Assembly: GCA_013695115.1 (NCBI GenBank)
Contig: JACDBD010000413.1
Span: forward strand, 1-14,643
Origin: Actinomycetota bacterium
GTDB taxonomy: Bacteria; Actinomycetota; Acidimicrobiia; IMCC26256; JACDBD01
Length of the DNA stretch: 14,643 nt
Direction of reading: 5' to 3'
The position numbers and the translations under genes were made by a program. The notes under the pieces were generated by a model. That model did not search any database. It had not been told where the DNA came from and worked only from the letters and a program-made list of their open reading frames with translations. Positions 6,266-13,812 of the stretch are shown piece after piece; the first letter of the stretch is position 1, and every line of letters begins with the position of its first letter.

Positions 6266-6928
6266 GTGGCGGAGATGCACGACACCACCGAGGAGTACCT
6301 CGAGACCATCCTCGCCATCGAAGAGGAGGGCATCCCCCCGCTGCGCGCCCGGCTGGTCGAGCGCCTCGGGCTCTCCGCCGCCGCGGTCTCGGAGACCGTG
6401 AACCGGCTGGCCGCCCTGGGGTACACGGAGCTCCGGGACGACCGCACGATCCGCCTGACTGACAAGGGGCGCCAGCTCGCCACCACCGTCGTGCGCCGGC
6501 ACCGGCTGGCCGAGCGACTGCTCACCGACGTCATCGGGCTGGAGTGGGAGAAGGTGCACCGCGAGGCGGCCCGCTGGGAGCACGCGATCTCGGCCGACGT
6601 GGAGGAGAAGCTCGTCGAGCTGCTCGGCGACCCCGTGACCTGTCCGCACGGCAATCCGATCCCGGGCTCACGGAGAACGGCCAAAGCCACGCCGACCGTT
6701 CAGCTGGCGGCGGCCGAACCTGGTCGGGTGACGATCGCCCGCATCAGCGAGAAGCTCGAGCTCAACGACGACGGGCTGACGCTGCTCGCCCGCGCCCGCC
6801 TCATCCCGGGTGCGACCGCCACCGTCATCGAGCGGGGTGATGGCGGGGTCAAGGTGAAGACGTCGGCGGGCGAGCACACCGTCCCATCTGACGTCGCCGA
6901 GCAGATGTACGTCGCTACCGGCTCCTAG
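6266..6928 (+). CDS. DtxR/IdeR/MntR-family metal-dependent transcriptional regulator
   Basis: A 220-residue repressor that is expected to bind DNA when loaded with Fe(II) or Mn(II). It has a winged helix at 1-70 (LSAAAVSETVNRL is the recognition helix), a dimerisation and metal-binding domain at 71-140 ending CPHGNPIPG, and a C-terminal FeoA/SH3-like domain at about 145-220. With the GTG start at 6266 the numbering coincides exactly with DtxR. Ancillary-site residues His79, Glu83 and His98 and primary-site residues Glu105 and His106 are present. Met10 is replaced by Glu and Cys102 by Ala, so the primary site is altered. The GTG is likely leaderless; the in-frame ATG at 6275 would lose three residues. 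The gene is divergent from the iron importer and shares its metal box, so it is the probable local regulator. Fe versus Mn specificity is uncertain. Confidence 0.93.
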   Translation: MAEMHDTTEEYLETILAIEEEGIPPLRARLVERLGLSAAAVSETVNRLAALGYTELRDDRTIRLTDKGRQLATTVVRRHRLAERLLTDVIGLEWEKVHREAARWEHAISADVEEKLVELLGDPVTCPHGNPIPGSRRTAKATPTVQLAAAEPGRVTIARISEKLELNDDGLTLLARARLIPGATATVIERGDGGVKVKTSAGEHTVPSDVAEQMYVATGS

Positions 6929-6934
6929 CTCTCC

Positions 6935-7441
6935 TCAGCTGTCGTTGGGGAGGCGGCGCGCCCACCGCCTCCAGATCGCGGCGTACTCCTGCTCCAGCCG
7001 GTCGAGCCCGGCCTCGAGGGCGCTCACGTTCTCGTCCTCGGGCTCCTTGCCCCGAGCGCGTTTCAACGCCCACGAGATCGGGATCTGGCGCCGGATCTCC
7101 TCGATCTGCGCGTAGGTGGTCTCGGCCTCCTCCATGGCGGCGTCGTCGCGCACGCCCAGCGCCCGGCGCACCAATGCATAGGCGGCCGGCTCGATCCGAT
7201 CCGGCCCGAGCACGCCGCCCATTCGGTCGTCGAGGAGGAACAGCTGGCGGTGGAGGCGGCGCACGGTGCGACCGGCGGAGCGCCGGTCGACCTCGGCGAT
7301 GTCGGCGTACTTGCGGACCGCGAGCCGATGGGCGTGGTCCTGGCGGAGCCGGTGGGCCAGCCCTCGGTGGTCGGCGATCGCGTCCTCGTGGTTGTCGAGG
7401 AACAGCGCGACGACCTGATCAAGCCCGGAGGCTCCCGTCAC
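6935..7441 (-). CDS. Conserved-looking helical protein of unknown function, third gene of the SAM-riboswitch operon
   Basis: A 168-residue soluble protein that I do not recognise. It is rich in Arg, Asp, Glu and Ala, has no Cys, no signal peptide and no membrane segment, and looks almost wholly alpha-helical. A likely coiled coil lies at about 100-165 (EEAETTYAQIEEIRRQI and LEAGLDRLEQEYAAIWRRW). A His-rich stretch DHRGLAHRLRQDHAHR lies near residues 24-39. The GTG start at 7441 overlaps the stop of the sulfur-carrier gene as GTGA, so the two are translationally coupled and probably work together. The stop lies 6 bases from the convergent regulator gene. It could be a scaffold or helper for the sulfur-carrier/PLP pair, but nothing in the sequence proves this. 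Confidence 0.75.
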   Translation of the reverse strand: MTGASGLDQVVALFLDNHEDAIADHRGLAHRLRQDHAHRLAVRKYADIAEVDRRSAGRTVRRLHRQLFLLDDRMGGVLGPDRIEPAAYALVRRALGVRDDAAMEEAETTYAQIEEIRRQIPISWALKRARGKEPEDENVSALEAGLDRLEQEYAAIWRRWARRLPNDS

Positions 7442-7713
7442 CCGCCCGCCACCGCGGGGACGATGCTGACGGTCTGGCCGTCGGTGACCGCGGTGTCGAG
7501 ACCCTGGAGGAACCGGATGTCCTCGTCGGCGACGAAAACATTCACGAACCGCCGCAGCTCTCCGCTGTCGTCGTGGAGGCGCTCGGCGAAGCCGGGATGG
7601 CGCTCCTCGAGCGCCCCGAGGATCTCGGCCACGGTCTTGCCCTCGACCTGGATCTCGGACGCGCCGCCGGCGAGCTCGCGCAGCTGGGTTGGTATCCGCA
7701 CCGTGACAGCCAC
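7438..7713 (-). CDS. MoaD/ThiS/CysO-type sulfur-carrier protein
   Basis: A 91-residue beta-grasp ubiquitin-like protein ending in Gly90-Gly91, the tail that is adenylated and turned into a thiocarboxylate in this family. The N-terminal strand VTVRIPTQLRELAGG, the central helix VAEILGALEERHPG, and the C-terminal FVNVFVADEDIRF plus VSIVPAVAGG follow the MoaD/CysO pattern. The GTG start at 7713 is 5 bases after the stop of the PLP-enzyme gene, and that gene's last codons (GAGGAGTAG) supply the ribosome-binding site. Overlap with the next gene is GTGA. Position next to a fold-type II PLP enzyme recalls the mycobacterial cysO-cysM pair. No E1-like activating enzyme (MoeB/ThiF) is in the window. 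A role in molybdopterin synthesis is less likely because no moa genes are nearby. Confidence 0.9.
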   Translation of the reverse strand: MAVTVRIPTQLRELAGGASEIQVEGKTVAEILGALEERHPGFAERLHDDSGELRRFVNVFVADEDIRFLQGLDTAVTDGQTVSIVPAVAGG

Positions 7714-7718
7714 TGTTG

Positions 7719-8957
7719 CTACTCCTCGTCGATGTGATCTGGGTCGAACGCCTCGTGGAAGGCGTCGATGGTGGGACGGATCGTCGCGGTCGGTTCCGCC
7801 TCGACCGCGTCGAGCGTCTTGAGTCCCAAGCCGGTGATGTAGAGGACGACCCGCTCGTCGGGCGTCACGACACCCTCGTCGGCGAGGCGTTTGAGCGAGG
7901 CGACGGTGACGCCGCCGGCGGTCTCGGCGAAGATGCCCTCGGTGCGGGCGAGCAGCCGGATCCCCTCGACGACCTCGCCGTCGCTGACCGCGGCGAGGCC
8001 GCCTTCGGTCTGGCGGACCGCATCGAGGGCAAAGTAGCCGTCGGCGGGGTTTCCGATCGCCAGCGACTTGGCGATCGTGTCCGGCTTGACCGGGCGGATC
8101 GTGTCGGACCCCTCGCGCCAGGCGGTGGCGACCGGCGAACATCCGAGTGCCTGCGCGCCCGAGACCCGCACGTTCGGGGCGTGGTCGAGCAGGCCGACCT
8201 GGTGCAGCTCGTCGAACCCCTTGCGGATCTTCGTGAGCAACGAGCCGCTCGCGACAGGAACCACGACGTGGTCGGGCGTCTCCCACCCGAGCTGCTCGGC
8301 GGTCTCGTACGCGAGCGTCTTCGACCCCTCGGCGTAGAACGGCCGCACGTTGACGTTCACGAACGCCCACCGATACGTGCCCGCGAGCTCGGCGCACAGC
8401 CGGTTGACGTCGTCATAGTTCCCCTCGATGGCGACGACATTCCCGCCGTACACCGCGGTCGTGACGACTTTGGCCCGCTCCAGGTTCGACGGAATGAACA
8501 CGAAGCTCCGCAGCCCCGCCCGGGCGGCGTGAGCCGCGACGGAGTTGGCGAGGTTCCCAGTCGACGCGCACGCCGCCGTCTTGAACCCGAACTCGAGCGC
8601 CTTCGACAGCGCGACCGACGCGACCCGATCCTTGAACGAGTTGGTGGGGTTGAGCGTGTCGTTCTTCACCCACACCTCTCCCAGCCCGAGAGCAGCAGCG
8701 AGGCGGTCGGCCCGGACGAGGGGCGTGAAGCCCGCGCCCAGGTCGACGGCGTGGCCCCGGTCGACCGGCAGGAGGTCGGCGTAGCGCCAGATGCTGGCGG
8801 GACCGGCCGCGATTTGCTCGCGGCTGACCGCGGCGGCGACCGCGGCGTAGTCGTACGTGACCTCGAGCGGGCCGAAGCACCACTCGCACGTGTACACCGG
8901 GGCAATCTCGTACTCGCGCCCGCATTCCCGGCACCGAAGTCCTTGGACGTGCGCCAT
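7719..8957 (-). CDS. thrC: Threonine-synthase-like PLP enzyme with zinc-ribbon N-terminus, behind a SAM riboswitch
   Basis: A 412-residue fold-type II PLP enzyme of the threonine synthase family, which normally converts O-phosphohomoserine to threonine. Residues 9-27 carry two CxxC pairs (Cys9/Cys12 and Cys24/Cys27), probably a structural zinc ribbon. The Schiff-base lysine is Lys109 in NSFKDR, and the phosphate-contacting loop STGNLANS follows. I chose the ATG at 8957 because AGAGGAGG directly precedes it and the leader carries an exact complement to GGAGGAAC at this site; an in-frame ATG at 8981 adds 8 residues. The gene is followed after 5 bases by a Gly-Gly sulfur carrier. SAM control is unexpected for a pure threonine enzyme. 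A homocysteine-forming role using the carrier thiocarboxylate is an alternative that I cannot settle from sequence. Confidence 0.88.
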   Translation of the reverse strand: MAHVQGLRCRECGREYEIAPVYTCEWCFGPLEVTYDYAAVAAAVSREQIAAGPASIWRYADLLPVDRGHAVDLGAGFTPLVRADRLAAALGLGEVWVKNDTLNPTNSFKDRVASVALSKALEFGFKTAACASTGNLANSVAAHAARAGLRSFVFIPSNLERAKVVTTAVYGGNVVAIEGNYDDVNRLCAELAGTYRWAFVNVNVRPFYAEGSKTLAYETAEQLGWETPDHVVVPVASGSLLTKIRKGFDELHQVGLLDHAPNVRVSGAQALGCSPVATAWREGSDTIRPVKPDTIAKSLAIGNPADGYFALDAVRQTEGGLAAVSDGEVVEGIRLLARTEGIFAETAGGVTVASLKRLADEGVVTPDERVVLYITGLGLKTLDAVEAEPTATIRPTIDAFHEAFDPDHIDEE

Positions 8958-9035
8958 GTTCCTCCTCTGTACCCGAGCCATCCGGGCCCGGGCTCCTCGA
9001 CGCGCTCTCGAGCGCCTCGAGCGGAGGAACCGCTC
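8958..9035 (-). promoter_or_regulatory. Expression platform: anti-Shine-Dalgarno hairpin and sequestered RBS
   Basis: On the RNA strand GGAGGAAC (8965-8958) is the ribosome-binding site immediately before the ATG at 8957. Its exact reverse complement GTTCCTCC lies at 9030-9023. That anti-Shine-Dalgarno sequence is also the loop and flank of a hairpin, GAGCGG (9035-9030) pairing with CCGCTC (9024-9019). It can therefore either fold on itself, leaving the RBS free, or pair with the RBS and block translation. This implies control of translation start, not termination. Which fold goes with SAM is inference; the SAM-I norm is OFF when bound. Confidence 0.7.
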
Positions 9036-9042
9036 CGAAGCT

Positions 9043-9143
9043 GCTCATCGTTCAGGCATTGGCACCTGGTCTCGCCTCTGGCGGAGGCGGTGGCTGGTTG
9101 CCGCGGCGTCGTCGGGCCTGTCCCTCGGCCGCTCTTGATGAGC
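9043..9143 (-). promoter_or_regulatory. SAM riboswitch aptamer (SAM-I clan; lacks a P4 hairpin)
   Basis: On the minus strand the 101 bases carry the SAM-I core in order. P1 left arm GCTCATC (9143-9137) pairs perfectly with GATGAGC (9049-9043). Then come ATCAAGAG, GAGGGA (9126-9121), GGCCCGA, GGCAACC (9102-9096), a P3 hairpin CGCCTC/GAGGCG (9089-9084 with 9078-9073), and GGTGCCAA (9066-9059). P2 forms from CGGC and GCCG. Only 9 bases separate GGTGCCAA from the P1 right arm, so the usual P4 hairpin is absent. This resembles the SAM-I/SAM-IV variant class more than classic SAM-I. It controls the threonine-synthase-like and sulfur-carrier genes. Confidence 0.9.
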
Positions 9144-9156
9144 GCGTACCGGGGAC

Positions 9157-9162
9157 AAGATA
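9157..9162 (-). promoter_or_regulatory. Probable -10 box for the riboswitch operon
   Basis: TATCTT on the minus strand fits the TAnnnT -10 pattern and would place the start of transcription around 9150, just before the riboswitch P1 arm at 9143. I see no convincing -35 box at 16-19 bases. The stretch 9144-9210 is shared with the divergent gpgS promoter. Confidence 0.5.
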
Positions 9163-9198
9163 CCACCGGGAGCGCGTTTCGGCCGCTCGAACCGTGCA

Positions 9199-9204
9199 TA
9201 GGCT
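9199..9204 (+). promoter_or_regulatory. Probable -10 box of gpgS (leaderless)
   Basis: TAGGCT lies 6 bases before the GTG at 9211, and no Shine-Dalgarno sequence lies between them. This is the layout of leaderless actinobacterial transcripts, where transcription begins at the first base of the start codon. No clear -35 box is visible. Confidence 0.55.
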
Positions 9205-9210
9205 CGCGGC

Positions 9211-10134
9211 GTGCGTTCGTTCCGGGACAAGGAAAGGGCGGGGCTGCTGGCCCGGGCGAAGGCCCGCGAGGGCCTCACCGTTTCGGTGTGCATCCCGGCG
9301 CGGGACGAGGAGGCGACCCTCGGCGAGATCGTCACCACCATCCGCCGCGAGCTCGTGGAGGCCGTGCCGCTCGTCGACGAGGTCGTTGTGCTCGACGACG
9401 GCTCGCTCGACGCGACGGCGCGGGTCGCCGCCCGCGCCGGCGCACGCGTGTGGGCGGTCGACCAGGTGCCCGACGGGCTGCCCCCCGGTTCCGGGAAGGG
9501 CAACGCGCTCTGGAAGTCGCTGTTCGTCGCCGAGGGCGCCATCATCTGTTTCCTCGACGCCGACGTGCGGAACTTCGGGTCGCACTTCGTCTCGAGGCTC
9601 GTCGAGCCCCTGGTGGCGCGACCCGCGGTCGGCATGGTGAAGAGCTACTACCGCCGTCCGCTCTACGGCGAGCCCACCGGTGGCGGGCGCGTCACCGAGT
9701 TGATGGCGCGGCCGCTGCTCTCCCGGCTGTTCCCGGAGCTGGCCCACTTCGTGCAACCGCTCTCCGGTGAGTACGCGGCGCGGCGGGAGGTGCTGGAAGC
9801 GGTCCCGTTCGTGCAGGGATGGGGCGTGGAGGTCGGACTGCTCATCGACGTGGCCGAGCGCTTCGGGATCGACGCGATCGTCCAGGCCGACCTGGGTGCG
9901 CGCGAGCACCGCAACCGCCCGCTCGACGATCTCGGCCTGCAAGCTCTCGCGATCCTGGTCACCGGCCTGCGTCGGGCCGGCCTCGACCATGGCCAATCGG
10001 ATGGCGCGGCCGAGCTCGTCCGCTTCGGCGCTGCGCTCCAGCCCGAGCGCGCCGCGGTCGAGGTGCGCGAGCGACCGCCGATGCTCACGGTGCCGGCGTA
10101 CGTCGCCAAGTTCGGCCGCGAGCTCTCCGCCTAG
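9211..10134 (+). CDS. gpgS: Glucosyl-3-phosphoglycerate synthase (GT81)
   Basis: A 307-residue GT-A glycosyltransferase that joins glucose from an NDP-glucose to 3-phosphoglycerate. This is the first step toward glucosylglycerate and, in mycobacteria, methylglucose lipopolysaccharides. Visible features are VSVCIPARDEEATL at 25-38, DDGSLD at 62-67, GSGKGNALWKSL at 93-104, and the metal-binding DAD at 116-118. GGGRVTELMARPLL (157-170), QPLSGEYAA (182-190) and REHRNRP (231-237) with His233 are GpgS hallmarks, also found in M. tuberculosis Rv1208. Length is close to the family norm. The GTG start has no Shine-Dalgarno sequence but has a -10 box 6 bases upstream. The matching phosphatase (GpgP) is not in the window. 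The gene converges with a glycerate kinase gene, 2 bases apart. Confidence 0.93.
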   Translation: MRSFRDKERAGLLARAKAREGLTVSVCIPARDEEATLGEIVTTIRRELVEAVPLVDEVVVLDDGSLDATARVAARAGARVWAVDQVPDGLPPGSGKGNALWKSLFVAEGAIICFLDADVRNFGSHFVSRLVEPLVARPAVGMVKSYYRRPLYGEPTGGGRVTELMARPLLSRLFPELAHFVQPLSGEYAARREVLEAVPFVQGWGVEVGLLIDVAERFGIDAIVQADLGAREHRNRPLDDLGLQALAILVTGLRRAGLDHGQSDGAAELVRFGAALQPERAAVEVRERPPMLTVPAYVAKFGRELSA

Positions 10135-10136
10135 AG

Positions 10137-11165
10137 CTACTCACCGAGGGCGCGGCGGCCGGCCTCAAGCGCGGCCTCTTCCACCAGGACGGCGGCCCGC
10201 GAGAACGCCTCGCCCGCCTGCCACACCCGTTCGGTCAGCGCGAGCACGTGCACGTCGCCGAGCACCGAGAGCTCCTCGCGGGCATCGTCGGTGACCTGTC
10301 CCGCGATCACGGCGCGGTGGGCAATCCCCTCCTCGGCCGCCCACTCGAGGACGCCGCCCACGACCTTGCCCTCGAAGCTCGTGCGGTCGACCTTGCCCTC
10401 GCCGGTCACGACGAGGTCGACGTCTTCGAGCGCGTCTTCGAGTCCGGCCGCCTGCGCCACCACCTCGAAGCCGGGTTCGAGCGTCGCGCCGATGGCGGCG
10501 AGTCCGCCGGCGAGACCGCCGGCGGCTCCGCCCCCGTCGAGCTCGGTCACGTCGACGCCGGTGCGGCGCTCGTACTCCTCGGCCAGACGCCGGAGCCGGC
10601 GCGTCAGCAGGGACACCTGCGCTTCGGTCGCGCCTTTCTGGGGCGCGTAGACCGTGGCCGCGTCGAGGAACCTCGTGGCCACGTCGCAGGCGATGGTCAC
10701 TCGGAGCCCGCCCAGCGACCAGCCGAGCGCGTCCACGGCGCCGAGCCCGCCATCCGTCGTCGCGCTCCCTCCGACACCGACGATGATGCGGCGAGCGCCG
10801 CCGCGGGCGGCCGTCGCGATGAGCTCACCCGTCCCCCGGGTGCTGGCGCGCAAGGGATCGTTGCGTCCGGCGACGAGATCGAGGCCGCTGGCGCGCGCCA
10901 TCTCGACCACCGCGGTCCCGTCGGGCAGGAGCGCCCACTCGGCCTCGACCGGCTCACCCAACGGTCCGGTCACCCGCGCCGTCCGGATCGAGCCGCCCCG
11001 GGCAGCTACGAGCGCGTCGAGCGTTCCCTCGCCGCCGTCGGCCACCGGGAGCCGGCGCACCTCGGCGAAGCCCGCCGCGGCCAGACCCGCGGCCATGGCA
11101 TTGGCCGCCTCGGCGGCGGTGAGCGTCCCGCGGAACTTGTCAGGACACGCTAGGGCGGTGGGCAC
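10137..11165 (-). CDS. Glycerate kinase (GlxK/GarK-type)
   Basis: A 342-residue kinase of the Gly_kinase family that phosphorylates D-glycerate to a phosphoglycerate in the cytosol. Recognisable are CPDKFRGTLTA at 7-17, VADGGEGTLDAL, GVGGSATTDGGLGAVDALG, DGGGAAGGLAGGL, and TGEGKVDRTSFEGKVV near the C-terminus. It is slightly shorter than the usual 370-380 residues. The GTG start at 11165 gives the expected short lead-in to the PDKF motif; no Shine-Dalgarno sequence is visible, and the treT promoter region overlaps it on the other strand. Sitting between gpgS and the trehalose genes, it could recycle glycerate freed from glucosylglycerate, or supply phosphoglycerate to GpgS, depending on whether it makes the 2- or 3-phosphate. 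That cannot be read from the sequence. Confidence 0.92.
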   Translation of the reverse strand: MPTALACPDKFRGTLTAAEAANAMAAGLAAAGFAEVRRLPVADGGEGTLDALVAARGGSIRTARVTGPLGEPVEAEWALLPDGTAVVEMARASGLDLVAGRNDPLRASTRGTGELIATAARGGARRIIVGVGGSATTDGGLGAVDALGWSLGGLRVTIACDVATRFLDAATVYAPQKGATEAQVSLLTRRLRRLAEEYERRTGVDVTELDGGGAAGGLAGGLAAIGATLEPGFEVVAQAAGLEDALEDVDLVVTGEGKVDRTSFEGKVVGGVLEWAAEEGIAHRAVIAGQVTDDAREELSVLGDVHVLALTERVWQAGEAFSRAAVLVEEAALEAGRRALGE

Positions 11166-11171
11166 GCTGGA

Positions 11172-11177
11172 TAGATT
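11172..11177 (+). promoter_or_regulatory. Probable -10 box of treT (leaderless)
   Basis: TAGATT lies 7 bases upstream of the ATG at 11185, with no Shine-Dalgarno sequence between them. This favours the ATG as start over the in-frame GTG at 11158, which would place the -10 box inside the coding region. The box also lies just upstream of the divergent glycerate kinase start, so the two promoters overlap. Confidence 0.5.
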
Positions 11178-11184
11178 GCACCGA

Positions 11185-12432
11185 ATGCTCGAACGCGTCC
11201 CGTTGCTCGAGAAGGACCTCGACGCCTACAGCGAGATCGTCGGCACGGAGGTCGTCGCCCGCATCCGCGAGCTGGCCGAGCCCTTGCGCGGTGCCCGTGT
11301 TCTCCATGTCAACGCCACCGCCTACGGCGGCGGGGTCGCAGAGCTGCTCGCCACCCACGTACCCCTCTTGCGGAGCGCCGGCCTCGCAGCCGACTGGCAG
11401 GTGATCCGCGGGAGCGACGAGTTCTTCAAGGTCACCAAGTCGGTCCACAACGCGCTCCAAGGAGGCGACGTCGAGTGGACGCGAACCATGGAGGCCGCCT
11501 ACCTGGAGAATGTGCTCGACAACGCCCTCAGGCTCGAAGGTGCGTTCGACTTCGTCGTCGTCCACGATCCCCAGCCGGCCGCCCTACGCAGCTTCGTACG
11601 TGACCGCACCCTCAGGCACGAGGGGACGAAGTGGATCTGGCGCGGCCACATCGACCTCACCGACGCCGATCCCAAGGTGTGGGAGTTCTACCGGCCATTC
11701 GTCGAGCTTCACGATGCCGCGGTGTTCACCATGCCGGAGTTCGTGCCCGACACACTCGAGCTGGAGCCACTCGTGGCCCCGCCGTGCATCGATCCACTGT
11801 CGGTGAAGAACCTCGACCTACCCCGGCCCTTCGGCGAGGAGCTGTGCAAGCAATACGGGGTCGACGTGCGCCGTCCTTTCGTCTGTCAGGTGAGCCGTTA
11901 CGACCCCTGGAAGGATCCGATCGGCGTGATCGACGCGTTCCGGATCGTGCGCGAGAAGGTGACTGACGCGCAGTTGGTACTGGCCGGGTCCATGGCTACC
12001 GACGACCCCGAGGGCTTCCAAGTGTGGGAGGAAGTCCAGCAGGCGCGCGCTGACGACCCCGACATCCACCTCCTCTCGAACATCCAGCAAGTGGGGAACG
12101 TGCAGATCAACGCGTTCCAACGGCTGGCCGCCGTCGTTATCCAGAAGTCGATACGTGAGGGCTTCGGACTGACGGTGTCGGAGGCGCTCTGGAAGGGCCG
12201 CCCGGTTGTCGGCGGACGCGCCGGCGGCATCGTGCTCCAGATCCGCGACGGCTACGACGGCTACCTCGTCGACTCGGTCGAGGAGTGCGCCGCCCGCACG
12301 ATCGATCTGCTGGCCGACCCGGTCGGTGCCGACGCCATGGGCGCCCAGGGTCGCGAGCACGTGCGACAGAACTTCCTCTGCACCCGCGAGCTCGAGGACT
12401 GGCTGCGGCTGTTCACGCAGCTCCGGGCCTGA
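11185..12432 (+). CDS. treT: Trehalose glycosyltransferring synthase (TreT, GT4)
   Basis: A 415-residue GT-B enzyme that reversibly joins NDP-glucose and free glucose to trehalose. The N-terminal half carries HVNATAYGGGVAELL, the EFFKVTKSVHNALQG stretch and VVHDPQPAAL, all typical of TreT. The middle has WIWRGHIDLTDADPKVWEF and PPCIDPLSVKN. The C-terminal nucleotide-binding half has CQVSRYDPWKDPIGVIDAF and SIREGFGLTVSEALWKG, with Glu325 and Glu333 forming the GT4 E-x7-E motif. Length matches known TreT proteins. The start at 11185 is chosen for its -10 box 7 bases upstream and for alignment with family N-termini. The stop TGA directly abuts the ATG of otsA, so the two are one operon, giving two different trehalose-forming enzymes in a row. 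Confidence 0.92.
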   Translation: MLERVPLLEKDLDAYSEIVGTEVVARIRELAEPLRGARVLHVNATAYGGGVAELLATHVPLLRSAGLAADWQVIRGSDEFFKVTKSVHNALQGGDVEWTRTMEAAYLENVLDNALRLEGAFDFVVVHDPQPAALRSFVRDRTLRHEGTKWIWRGHIDLTDADPKVWEFYRPFVELHDAAVFTMPEFVPDTLELEPLVAPPCIDPLSVKNLDLPRPFGEELCKQYGVDVRRPFVCQVSRYDPWKDPIGVIDAFRIVREKVTDAQLVLAGSMATDDPEGFQVWEEVQQARADDPDIHLLSNIQQVGNVQINAFQRLAAVVIQKSIREGFGLTVSEALWKGRPVVGGRAGGIVLQIRDGYDGYLVDSVEECAARTIDLLADPVGADAMGAQGREHVRQNFLCTRELEDWLRLFTQLRA

Positions 12433-13812
12433 ATGCTCGTCGCGTCGCACCGCGGACCGAGCAGCTTCAGCGAGGCCGAAGACGGATCGTTCACGGTTCG
12501 GCGCGGTGCGGGAGGCGTCGTGAGCGCGCTCGAGCCGCTGCTGACCCGACCGGGCAACGAAACCCCCGCCACCTGGGTCGCGGCGGCGATAGGCGACGGT
12601 GATCGCGCCGCCGTGCGCGCCGGCGCCGCGACGGTCCCGGACCTCGACCTCCACCTGCTCGAGCTCGACCCGCACGCTCACCGGCTGCATTACGACCTGG
12701 TGTCCAACGCGGTGCTGTGGTTCCTCCACCACGGCCTGTTCGATCTCCCCCGCCGACCGAGATTCGACACCCGATTTCGGGAGGCATGGGACGCCTACAC
12801 CGCTGTCAACCGCGCCTTCGCCGACCACATCTCGGCGTGCGCGCCGTCCGAAGAGGTCGTGCTGGTGCAGGACTACCACCTCGCGCTCGTGCCCGGGTTC
12901 CTGCGCGCGTCCCGCCCCGACCTGCGCGTCACGCACTTCAACCACACGCCCTTCTGCGGGCCCACGTCGATCCGGGTGCTTCCCGACGCGGTCTCCAGCT
13001 CGATCTGCGAGTCGATGGCATCCGTCCCTTCGGGCTTCCACACCGCCCGCTGGGCGCGGGCCTACGAAGCGTCCGCGCACGAGGTACTGGGCGCCGACCG
13101 CCCGGTCGCGCCCGCCTTCGTCGCGTCGCTCGGGCCCGACGCCGACGATCTCGCCGCGACCGCGGCTTCACCCGAAGCGGCGGTGGCCGCCCGGACCCTC
13201 GAGGAGCAAGTCGGCGACCGCTCGCTCATCGTGCGCACCGACCGCGTCGAACCTTCGAAGAACATCGTGCGGGGGTTTCTCGCCTACGACCTGATGCTGT
13301 CGGAGCACCCCGAATGGCAGGAGCGCGTGACCTTCGTCGCGTTGGTCTACGCGTCCCGCGAAGGCCTACCCGAGTACCTCGCCTACCGCCAGGAGGTCGA
13401 GCAGGCCGCGGCGCGCGTCAACGAGCGCTGGGGACGCAGCGACTGGCAGCCGGTCGTCCTCGACACCCGGGACGACCACGCCCGCAGCATCGCCGGGCTG
13501 CTCCGCTACGACGTCCTCCTGGTGAACCCGATCAAGGACGGGCTCAACCTGGTCGCCAAGGAAGGTCCCCTCGTCAACCGACGCGACGGTGTGGTCTGTC
13601 TGTCACGGGAGGCGGGGGCGTTCGACGAACTGCGCGACGGGGTGGTGGCCGTCCACCCGTACGACCTCGCGCAGACCGCGTCGGCCCTTCAGGCCGCGCT
13701 CACGATGCCCGACGACGAACGGCGCGGCCGCGCCGCCCGTCTGCGATCGCTGGCGGCGGCCCGCACCCCGGCCGACTGGCTGAACGACCAGATCCGCGCC
13801 GCCGGCGGCTAA
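12433..13812 (+). CDS. otsA: Trehalose-6-phosphate synthase-like GT20 (OtsA)
   Basis: A 459-residue GT-B enzyme expected to transfer glucose from an NDP-glucose to glucose 6-phosphate, giving trehalose 6-phosphate. By E. coli OtsA correspondence the key residues are visible: Arg7 in ASHRGP, the glycine loop RRGAGG at 23-28, LVQDYHLALVP with Asp147, HFNHTPF with His171, TDRVEPSKN with Arg271 and Lys276, and NPIKDGLNLVAKEG with Asp369 and Glu377. The N-terminal ASHRGP and the SREAGAFDEL stretch mark the actinobacterial branch of the family. The ATG abuts the treT stop (TGAATG), so translation probably relies on ribosomes finishing treT; no separate ribosome-binding site stands out. A related acceptor other than glucose 6-phosphate cannot be excluded in this branch. 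Confidence 0.88.
   Translation: MLVASHRGPSSFSEAEDGSFTVRRGAGGVVSALEPLLTRPGNETPATWVAAAIGDGDRAAVRAGAATVPDLDLHLLELDPHAHRLHYDLVSNAVLWFLHHGLFDLPRRPRFDTRFREAWDAYTAVNRAFADHISACAPSEEVVLVQDYHLALVPGFLRASRPDLRVTHFNHTPFCGPTSIRVLPDAVSSSICESMASVPSGFHTARWARAYEASAHEVLGADRPVAPAFVASLGPDADDLAATAASPEAAVAARTLEEQVGDRSLIVRTDRVEPSKNIVRGFLAYDLMLSEHPEWQERVTFVALVYASREGLPEYLAYRQEVEQAAARVNERWGRSDWQPVVLDTRDDHARSIAGLLRYDVLLVNPIKDGLNLVAKEGPLVNRRDGVVCLSREAGAFDELRDGVVAVHPYDLAQTASALQAALTMPDDERRGRAARLRSLAAARTPADWLNDQIRAAGG

Follow-up and report, generated by a model that had tools for sequence, protein, structure and literature searches.

What is a SAM riboswitch doing in front of a gene that would ordinarily be called a threonine synthase? 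The question is raised by a contig of 14,643 nucleotides from an Actinomycetota bacterium of the class Acidimicrobiia (JACDBD010000413.1; the whole of this stretch is referred to as the window), which forms part of a draft genome that is 88% complete and divided into 454 contigs. An initial annotation had recognized a SAM riboswitch on the minus strand and offered two readings of it, either that SAM tunes threonine flux, or that the enzyme is not a threonine maker.

The riboswitch is located in a 253-base gap between the gene in question, which we call metM-like (start 8957, minus strand), and gpgS (start 9211, plus strand):

9042..9144, minus strand: SAM-I riboswitch aptamer (RF00162), with P1, P2, P3 and the loop pseudoknot present and P4 absent

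When Rfam covariance models were run, as had been proposed, the element at 9144–9042 scored 66.1 bits (E 8e-14) against SAM (RF00162), for which the curated cut-off is 44.4, and the alignment spans the full model (1–108). The SAM-I-IV model (RF01725) gave 0 matches across the genome at E ≤ 1, and RF00162 was reported over SAM-IV (RF00634) at 9042–9144 by a clan scan that names the best family alone. Judged by its curated score, the element is a member of the RF00162 family, and we name it SAM-I-like without P4. The P1 strands, GCTCATC (9143–9137) and GATGAGC (9049–9043), pair without mismatch, and both GGCAACC and GGTGCCAA are found in the core, so that the perfect seven-base-pair P1 and the core sequences are exactly where the initial annotation had placed them. 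A CAGGC/GCCTG complementarity, read by eye, links the P2 loop to the stretch 3' of P3. No further RF00162 match was found in the 88% complete draft at E ≤ 0.001. CRISPR-repeat matches in the window fell below their cut-off and were taken as chance.

The pairing of this riboswitch with this gene recurs in related genomes. RF00162 is present in 38 of the 41 genomes of the order. Of 54 matches listed there, 30 loci were examined (the other 24 may precede different genes), and the leaders of these homologous loci bear out the pairing, with RF00162 running into a metM start in 29 of the 30 and the remaining one meeting a contig end. For 28 of the 30, MetM behind the switch is backed by tblastn (the window's own protein and 27 others at 73.6–84.9% identity). 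Across the phylum, MetM-class matches (52–100% identity, the other listed matches being at 44% or less) occur in at least 108 of 296 genomes, and in at least 58 of these 108 RF00162 is located 18–258 nt upstream on the same strand. The other 50 genomes divide, among the matches listed, into 22 with RF00162 elsewhere and 28 without it at E ≤ 0.001. We also collected the loci of the best 80 of at least 590 relatives (the named loci). At the curated cut-off, 27 of them have RF00162 no more than 500 nt upstream and 53 have none; 25 of the 27 are titled Actinomycetota or Chloroflexota and two otherwise, and no RF00162 was found upstream of the cyanobacterial, Nitrospirota- or Aquificota-titled loci among the 80. 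On these counts, the switch before metM is common but not universal.

The gene behind the switch is itself followed by a second gene on the same strand:

7719..8957, minus strand: metM-like gene, elsewhere annotated as threonine synthase, encoding 412 amino acids of PLP fold type II with an N-terminal C4 zinc ribbon

7438..7722, minus strand: metO-like gene, encoding a ThiS/MoaD-type sulfur carrier that ends in Gly-Gly, with a GTG start at 7722 or 7713

A start at 7722 would make the metO-like gene overlap the metM stop by 4 bases. Its 94-residue product has the C-terminus PAVAGG and scores 62 bits against PF02597 and 65 bits against NF041918. In 61 of the 80 named loci a MetO-like frame is present within 250 nt downstream of metM; in 12 it is found at 293–862 nt and in one at 2.7 kb (either strand), while in 6 it was not found near metM.

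Several neighbouring genes were also recorded. A 168-amino-acid frame (6935–7441, minus strand) overlaps the metO stop via GTGA; it has no Pfam or NCBIfam match and no tblastn match in stretches from 8 relatives, one of them of the same family, and seems to have joined the operon in this lineage only. Convergent with the operon is a gene for a DtxR/MntR-type metal regulator (6266–6928, plus strand); 7 of the 8 relatives looked at also have such a regulator on the metO side, at distances from 22 nt to 1.6 kb. Beside metM, positions 9211–13812 carry gpgS, glycerate kinase, TreT and OtsA-like genes, which look like a compatible-solute cluster; gpgS matches were found in 47 loci (window copies counted, in either orientation).

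Could the enzyme be a true threonine synthase, with SAM tuning the threonine branch? The threonine synthase of plants is activated by SAM, and the profile scores speak for this reading, the protein reaching 249 bits against PF00291, 308 bits against NF006050 (above cut-off) and 288.5 bits against TIGR00260, where the cut-off is 167.1. TIGR00260, however, fails to separate MetM from ThrC, giving 266 bits for a Streptomyces-type MetM and 309 bits for the genome's own ThrC. This canonical ThrC, encoded on another contig directly behind homoserine dehydrogenase, argues against the reading, and is 38% identical to the window MetM; in all, the genome contains four PALP-family matches besides the metM-like gene. 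A further match at E ≤ 1e-30 is likewise present in 104 of the 108 MetM genomes (counted by match, not case by case), and its absence from the other 4 is a point in favour of threonine synthesis. Also against it, a sulfur carrier adjoins metM in most named loci, and the draft has no second RF00162, though the hom-thrC contig begins 34 bases before hom and a switch there could thus be missed.

The residues of the enzyme point in the same direction. Counting as near-fixed those sites held by 27 or 28 of 28 MetM-class proteins and by 8 or 9 of 9 ThrC proteins, we found MetM/ThrC differences at positions 205 (R/N), 208 (Y/R), 212 (S/Q), 236–238 (ASG/GNA) and 349 (G/A), and the window protein carries the non-ThrC residues at all of them. 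By structure match and position count, its Y208 and S237 correspond to R160 and N188 of Thermus thermophilus ThrC, which we take to contact the substrate phosphate. The zinc-ribbon cysteines are kept in all 28 MetM-class proteins, and no ribbon was found before ThrC in the 9 examined, of which 3 are cut by the stretch end (the ThrC pieces in the residue comparison began at the match, so that their N-termini were inspected separately). The 9 ThrC proteins cluster apart from the 28 MetM-class proteins, with support of 0.999, in a tree that is unrooted and does not imply that MetM is monophyletic; the window MetM is 52–68% identical to ten distant relatives. Judged by these sequence characters, the switched gene is a member of a distinct subfamily and not the genome's ordinary threonine synthase, and we regard SAM control of a true threonine synthase as very unlikely.

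A different role for such a gene has been described in Streptomyces. In literature on SAM riboswitches or sulfur carriers together with threonine synthase or O-phosphohomoserine, and on MetM, the sole direct lead was PMC12172450. In the part of that paper available to us, Streptomyces MetM is cited as a homocysteine synthase that uses O-phosphohomoserine, with reference to work on Streptomyces albulus MetM/MetO (Hasebe et al. 2024, Appl Environ Microbiol 90:e01247-24); MetO is named alongside an annotation as sulfur carrier, and the text implies that a SAM riboswitch precedes metM in S. albulus. The same text reports that a cyanobacterial MetM homologue had threonine synthase activity in vitro and that there was no methionine rise in cells. 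Switch, metM and carrier also occur together in one of our loci that is of Streptomyces type, its protein sharing 94% identity with a named Streptomyces protein; the MetM encoded there and that of the window are 58% identical.

We consider it probable, at about 0.86, that metM and metO here form a SAM-repressed operon whose MetM makes homocysteine for methionine. This reading draws on the riboswitch, the gene order, the subfamily, the separate ThrC, the conservation of the arrangement and the matching of anti-Shine-Dalgarno to Shine-Dalgarno sequences described below. The reaction and the sulfur source would be those of the reported Streptomyces system, while the riboswitch class and related leaders suggest the OFF direction. 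In outline, the SAM-I-type aptamer in the leader would sense SAM; when SAM is plentiful, translation of metM and metO would be lowered, most likely via occlusion of the metM Shine-Dalgarno sequence, and when SAM is scarce both proteins would be made. MetO, presumably as the thiocarboxylate of its C-terminal glycine, would pass sulfur to MetM, and MetM would convert O-phosphohomoserine to homocysteine, which in turn would yield methionine and SAM. Of the two readings first offered, the one in which the enzyme is not a threonine maker is thus favoured by the separate ThrC, the distinct residues and ribbon, the carrier and the Streptomyces MetM, and the tuning of threonine flux by SAM is disfavoured.

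An intermediate arrangement would have MetM make homocysteine with MetO and also some threonine by hydrolysis, so that SAM repression shifts the O-phosphohomoserine branch point. The fold is the same as that of ThrC and the substrate probably is too. The switched enzyme may retain some threonine synthase activity, which is conceivable because of the in vitro activity of the cyanobacterial homologue mentioned in the available part of PMC12172450. Against this, the genome has a dedicated ThrC, and the MetM residues are unlike those of ThrC; we rate such a bifunctional enzyme as rather unlikely. It is still less likely, to a degree that we would call slight, that the carrier and its enzyme serve to make not homocysteine but cysteine or some other thio-product. 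The mycobacterial CysM/CysO pair works by the same logic, and on contig C269 of the same genome (L034, L197) a second MoaD/SAMP1-like carrier adjoins a CysM-like enzyme, so that the genome holds two pairs of carrier and PLP enzyme. The presence of that second pair, however, also means that a carrier-CysM pair is already available, control by SAM fits methionine, and the closest solved structure to MetM is a ThrC.

The methionine pathway of these organisms was surveyed for the enzymes that would otherwise be expected. In the window's own genome, an 88% complete draft, we found no MetX, no MetA, no full-length PF01053 enzyme, no homoserine kinase and no MetH (PF02574). A thrB match in this genome proved to be IspE and not homoserine kinase. 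Among the 41 genomes of the order, MetA is present in 3, the same 3 that are without the riboswitch, and near-full-length MetX in 22 (23 including one split gene). MetX was counted by TIGR01392 matches above 260 bits, because no genome, controls included, passes the TIGR01392 cut-off of 500 bits. Neither enzyme was found in 15 of the 41, all 15 of which carry the switch. Completeness reaches 90% or more, and contamination stays within 5%, in 7 of them, although genes can go missing from draft assemblies. The loci that were read through, in 9 of these 15 MetA/MetX-less genomes, have metM behind the switch. MetM would close the apparent methionine gap in such genomes. Across the phylum, 22 of 108 MetM genomes have MetX, as against 81 of the remaining 188 (p 8e-5 by Fisher's test, with no correction for kinship). 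With MetX also present in 22 of the 108 MetM genomes and 22 of the 41 order genomes, MetM is often not the sole route.

How the aptamer might act on its gene is suggested by the leader downstream of P1:

8996..9041, minus strand: conserved two-hairpin stretch 3' of P1, from an alignment of 16 leaders

8961..8967, minus strand: GAGGAGG, the Shine-Dalgarno sequence of metM

An anti-Shine-Dalgarno stretch is likely in the first of the two hairpins, GAGCGG-TTCCT-CCGCTC. Within this hairpin, GTTCCTCC is complementary to GGAGGAAC at the metM Shine-Dalgarno sequence, which lies 75 nt beyond the aptamer, and the minimum-energy fold pairs the two. Within the 3' stretch there is little covariation, both partners having changed in 1 of 14 pairs of a hand-drawn structure and in 2 of 14 of the RNAalifold one, so that the two hairpins rest mostly on sequence conservation. 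A simple scan of 8900–9260 revealed no intrinsic terminator and no sigma-70-type promoter; with no terminator found, translational control is likeliest, and the switch probably acts on translation.

We compared the anti-Shine-Dalgarno stretches with their own and with each other's targets. A start codon was assigned in 25 of the 30 order leaders, leaving out three near-copies, one that is cut and one with the Shine-Dalgarno sequence in P1; dropping four near-duplicates and two without a recognizable hairpin left 19, from which kinship is partly removed. The stretches fit their own Shine-Dalgarno sequences better (mean -17.2 kcal/mol) than those of other leaders (cross mean -14.7 kcal/mol), a difference reached in 0 of 20000 permutations. 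Corrected by letter shuffling, the values are z -1.24 for own and -0.45 for cross pairings (2 of 20000 permutations), with own z at or above -0.1 in 6 of the 19 (L002, L005, L007, L019, L020 and L028).

The direction of control is indicated by leaders with a simpler layout. In 12 of 51 leaders (of 57, the 6 without a recognizable ribbon being left out) the Shine-Dalgarno sequence starts inside the aptamer or at most one base past its 3' end, in or beside the P1 3' strand: L024, L117, L118, L119, L120, L121, L122, L124, L126, L128, L144 and L147. The first of these is the single case among 28 order leaders and the others are 11 of 23 named loci. A Shine-Dalgarno sequence directly in or near P1 is an arrangement described for SAM-I in the portion of PMC2258182 available to us. 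With this placement, P1 formation would hide the Shine-Dalgarno sequence, giving an OFF switch. The opposite possibility, a switch turned ON by SAM, finds some encouragement in the leader of the window, where the anti-Shine-Dalgarno stretch sits in a hairpin that competes with Shine-Dalgarno pairing. In addition, constrained equilibrium folding of 13 leaders with and without the SAM state shifted Shine-Dalgarno exposure by at most 0.08, which leaves the direction unfixed and the coupling of P1 to the Shine-Dalgarno/anti-Shine-Dalgarno pairing unexplained by equilibrium folding. However, the 12 leaders above, 1 of them from the order, point to OFF, and repression is expected for a gene that makes methionine; induction by SAM is therefore improbable.

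The aptamers of the order share an unusual feature. Helix P4 is deleted in the RF00162 alignment of the window aptamer and is missing in 29 of 30 order loci, as judged by spacing and, for L012, by eye. From GGTGCCA to the match end there are 17–18 nt in 28 of the 30; the exceptions are L012 (29 nt), in which the match end is set too far downstream and P4 is absent by eye, and L005 (34 nt), which has an insert. The same spacing is 30–58 nt in 30 high-scoring phylum-wide loci and 15–18 nt in 13 of 25 measurable named loci. P4 is peripheral to the SAM-I binding core, and aptamers that lack it represent a natural test of its role in SAM-I. A more speculative proposal, which we offer tentatively and with the odds against it, is that some Acidimicrobiia have O-phosphohomoserine as the sole branch point leading to threonine and methionine, as in plants, and that the split is set by a distinct SAM-I subtype in which P4 has been lost and the two-hairpin stretch both stabilizes the core and presents the anti-Shine-Dalgarno sequence.

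The surprising riboswitch target is thus most likely explained by a known, recently described pathway, here in a new bacterial group; the P4-less aptamer in the order and the genomes in which no acyl-homoserine route was found are possibly new details. The annotation 'threonine synthase', which is very common, is likely wrong for the MetM subfamily, whose titles among the best 80 of at least 590 relatives include Actinomycetota, Chloroflexota, Cyanobacteria, Nitrospirota, Aquificota and others.

Among known systems, ThrC (TIGR00260) is a fold type II PLP enzyme like MetM, and O-phosphohomoserine is probably the substrate of both; the window MetM differs from it in overall identity, in its residues at conserved sites and in the zinc ribbon, which was not found before the 9 ThrC examined, 3 of them cut. 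In the mycobacterial CysM/CysO system, a PLP enzyme is similarly fed by a thiocarboxylated carrier, but the product is cysteine and the substrate O-phosphoserine. The core, P1 to P3 and loop pseudoknot of SAM-I (S box, RF00162) are as in the window aptamer, which is without P4. SAM-IV, according to the accessible part of PMC6890682, also has no P4 and carries a hairpin after P1, as the window does; the window aptamer differs in that RF00162 scores best in the clan, and a SAM-IV-type PK-2 partner looks unlikely because, by eye, the 3' stretch hardly changes between leaders whose P3 loops differ. The closest counterpart is the S. albulus MetM/MetO system, which, as far as it is outlined in the available text of PMC12172450, likewise combines a ThrC-like enzyme, a sulfur carrier and an upstream SAM riboswitch. 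The candidate system in the window is set apart from that of Streptomyces by its class, Acidimicrobiia, by its P4-less aptamer, and by a distant Shine-Dalgarno sequence accompanied by an anti-Shine-Dalgarno hairpin.
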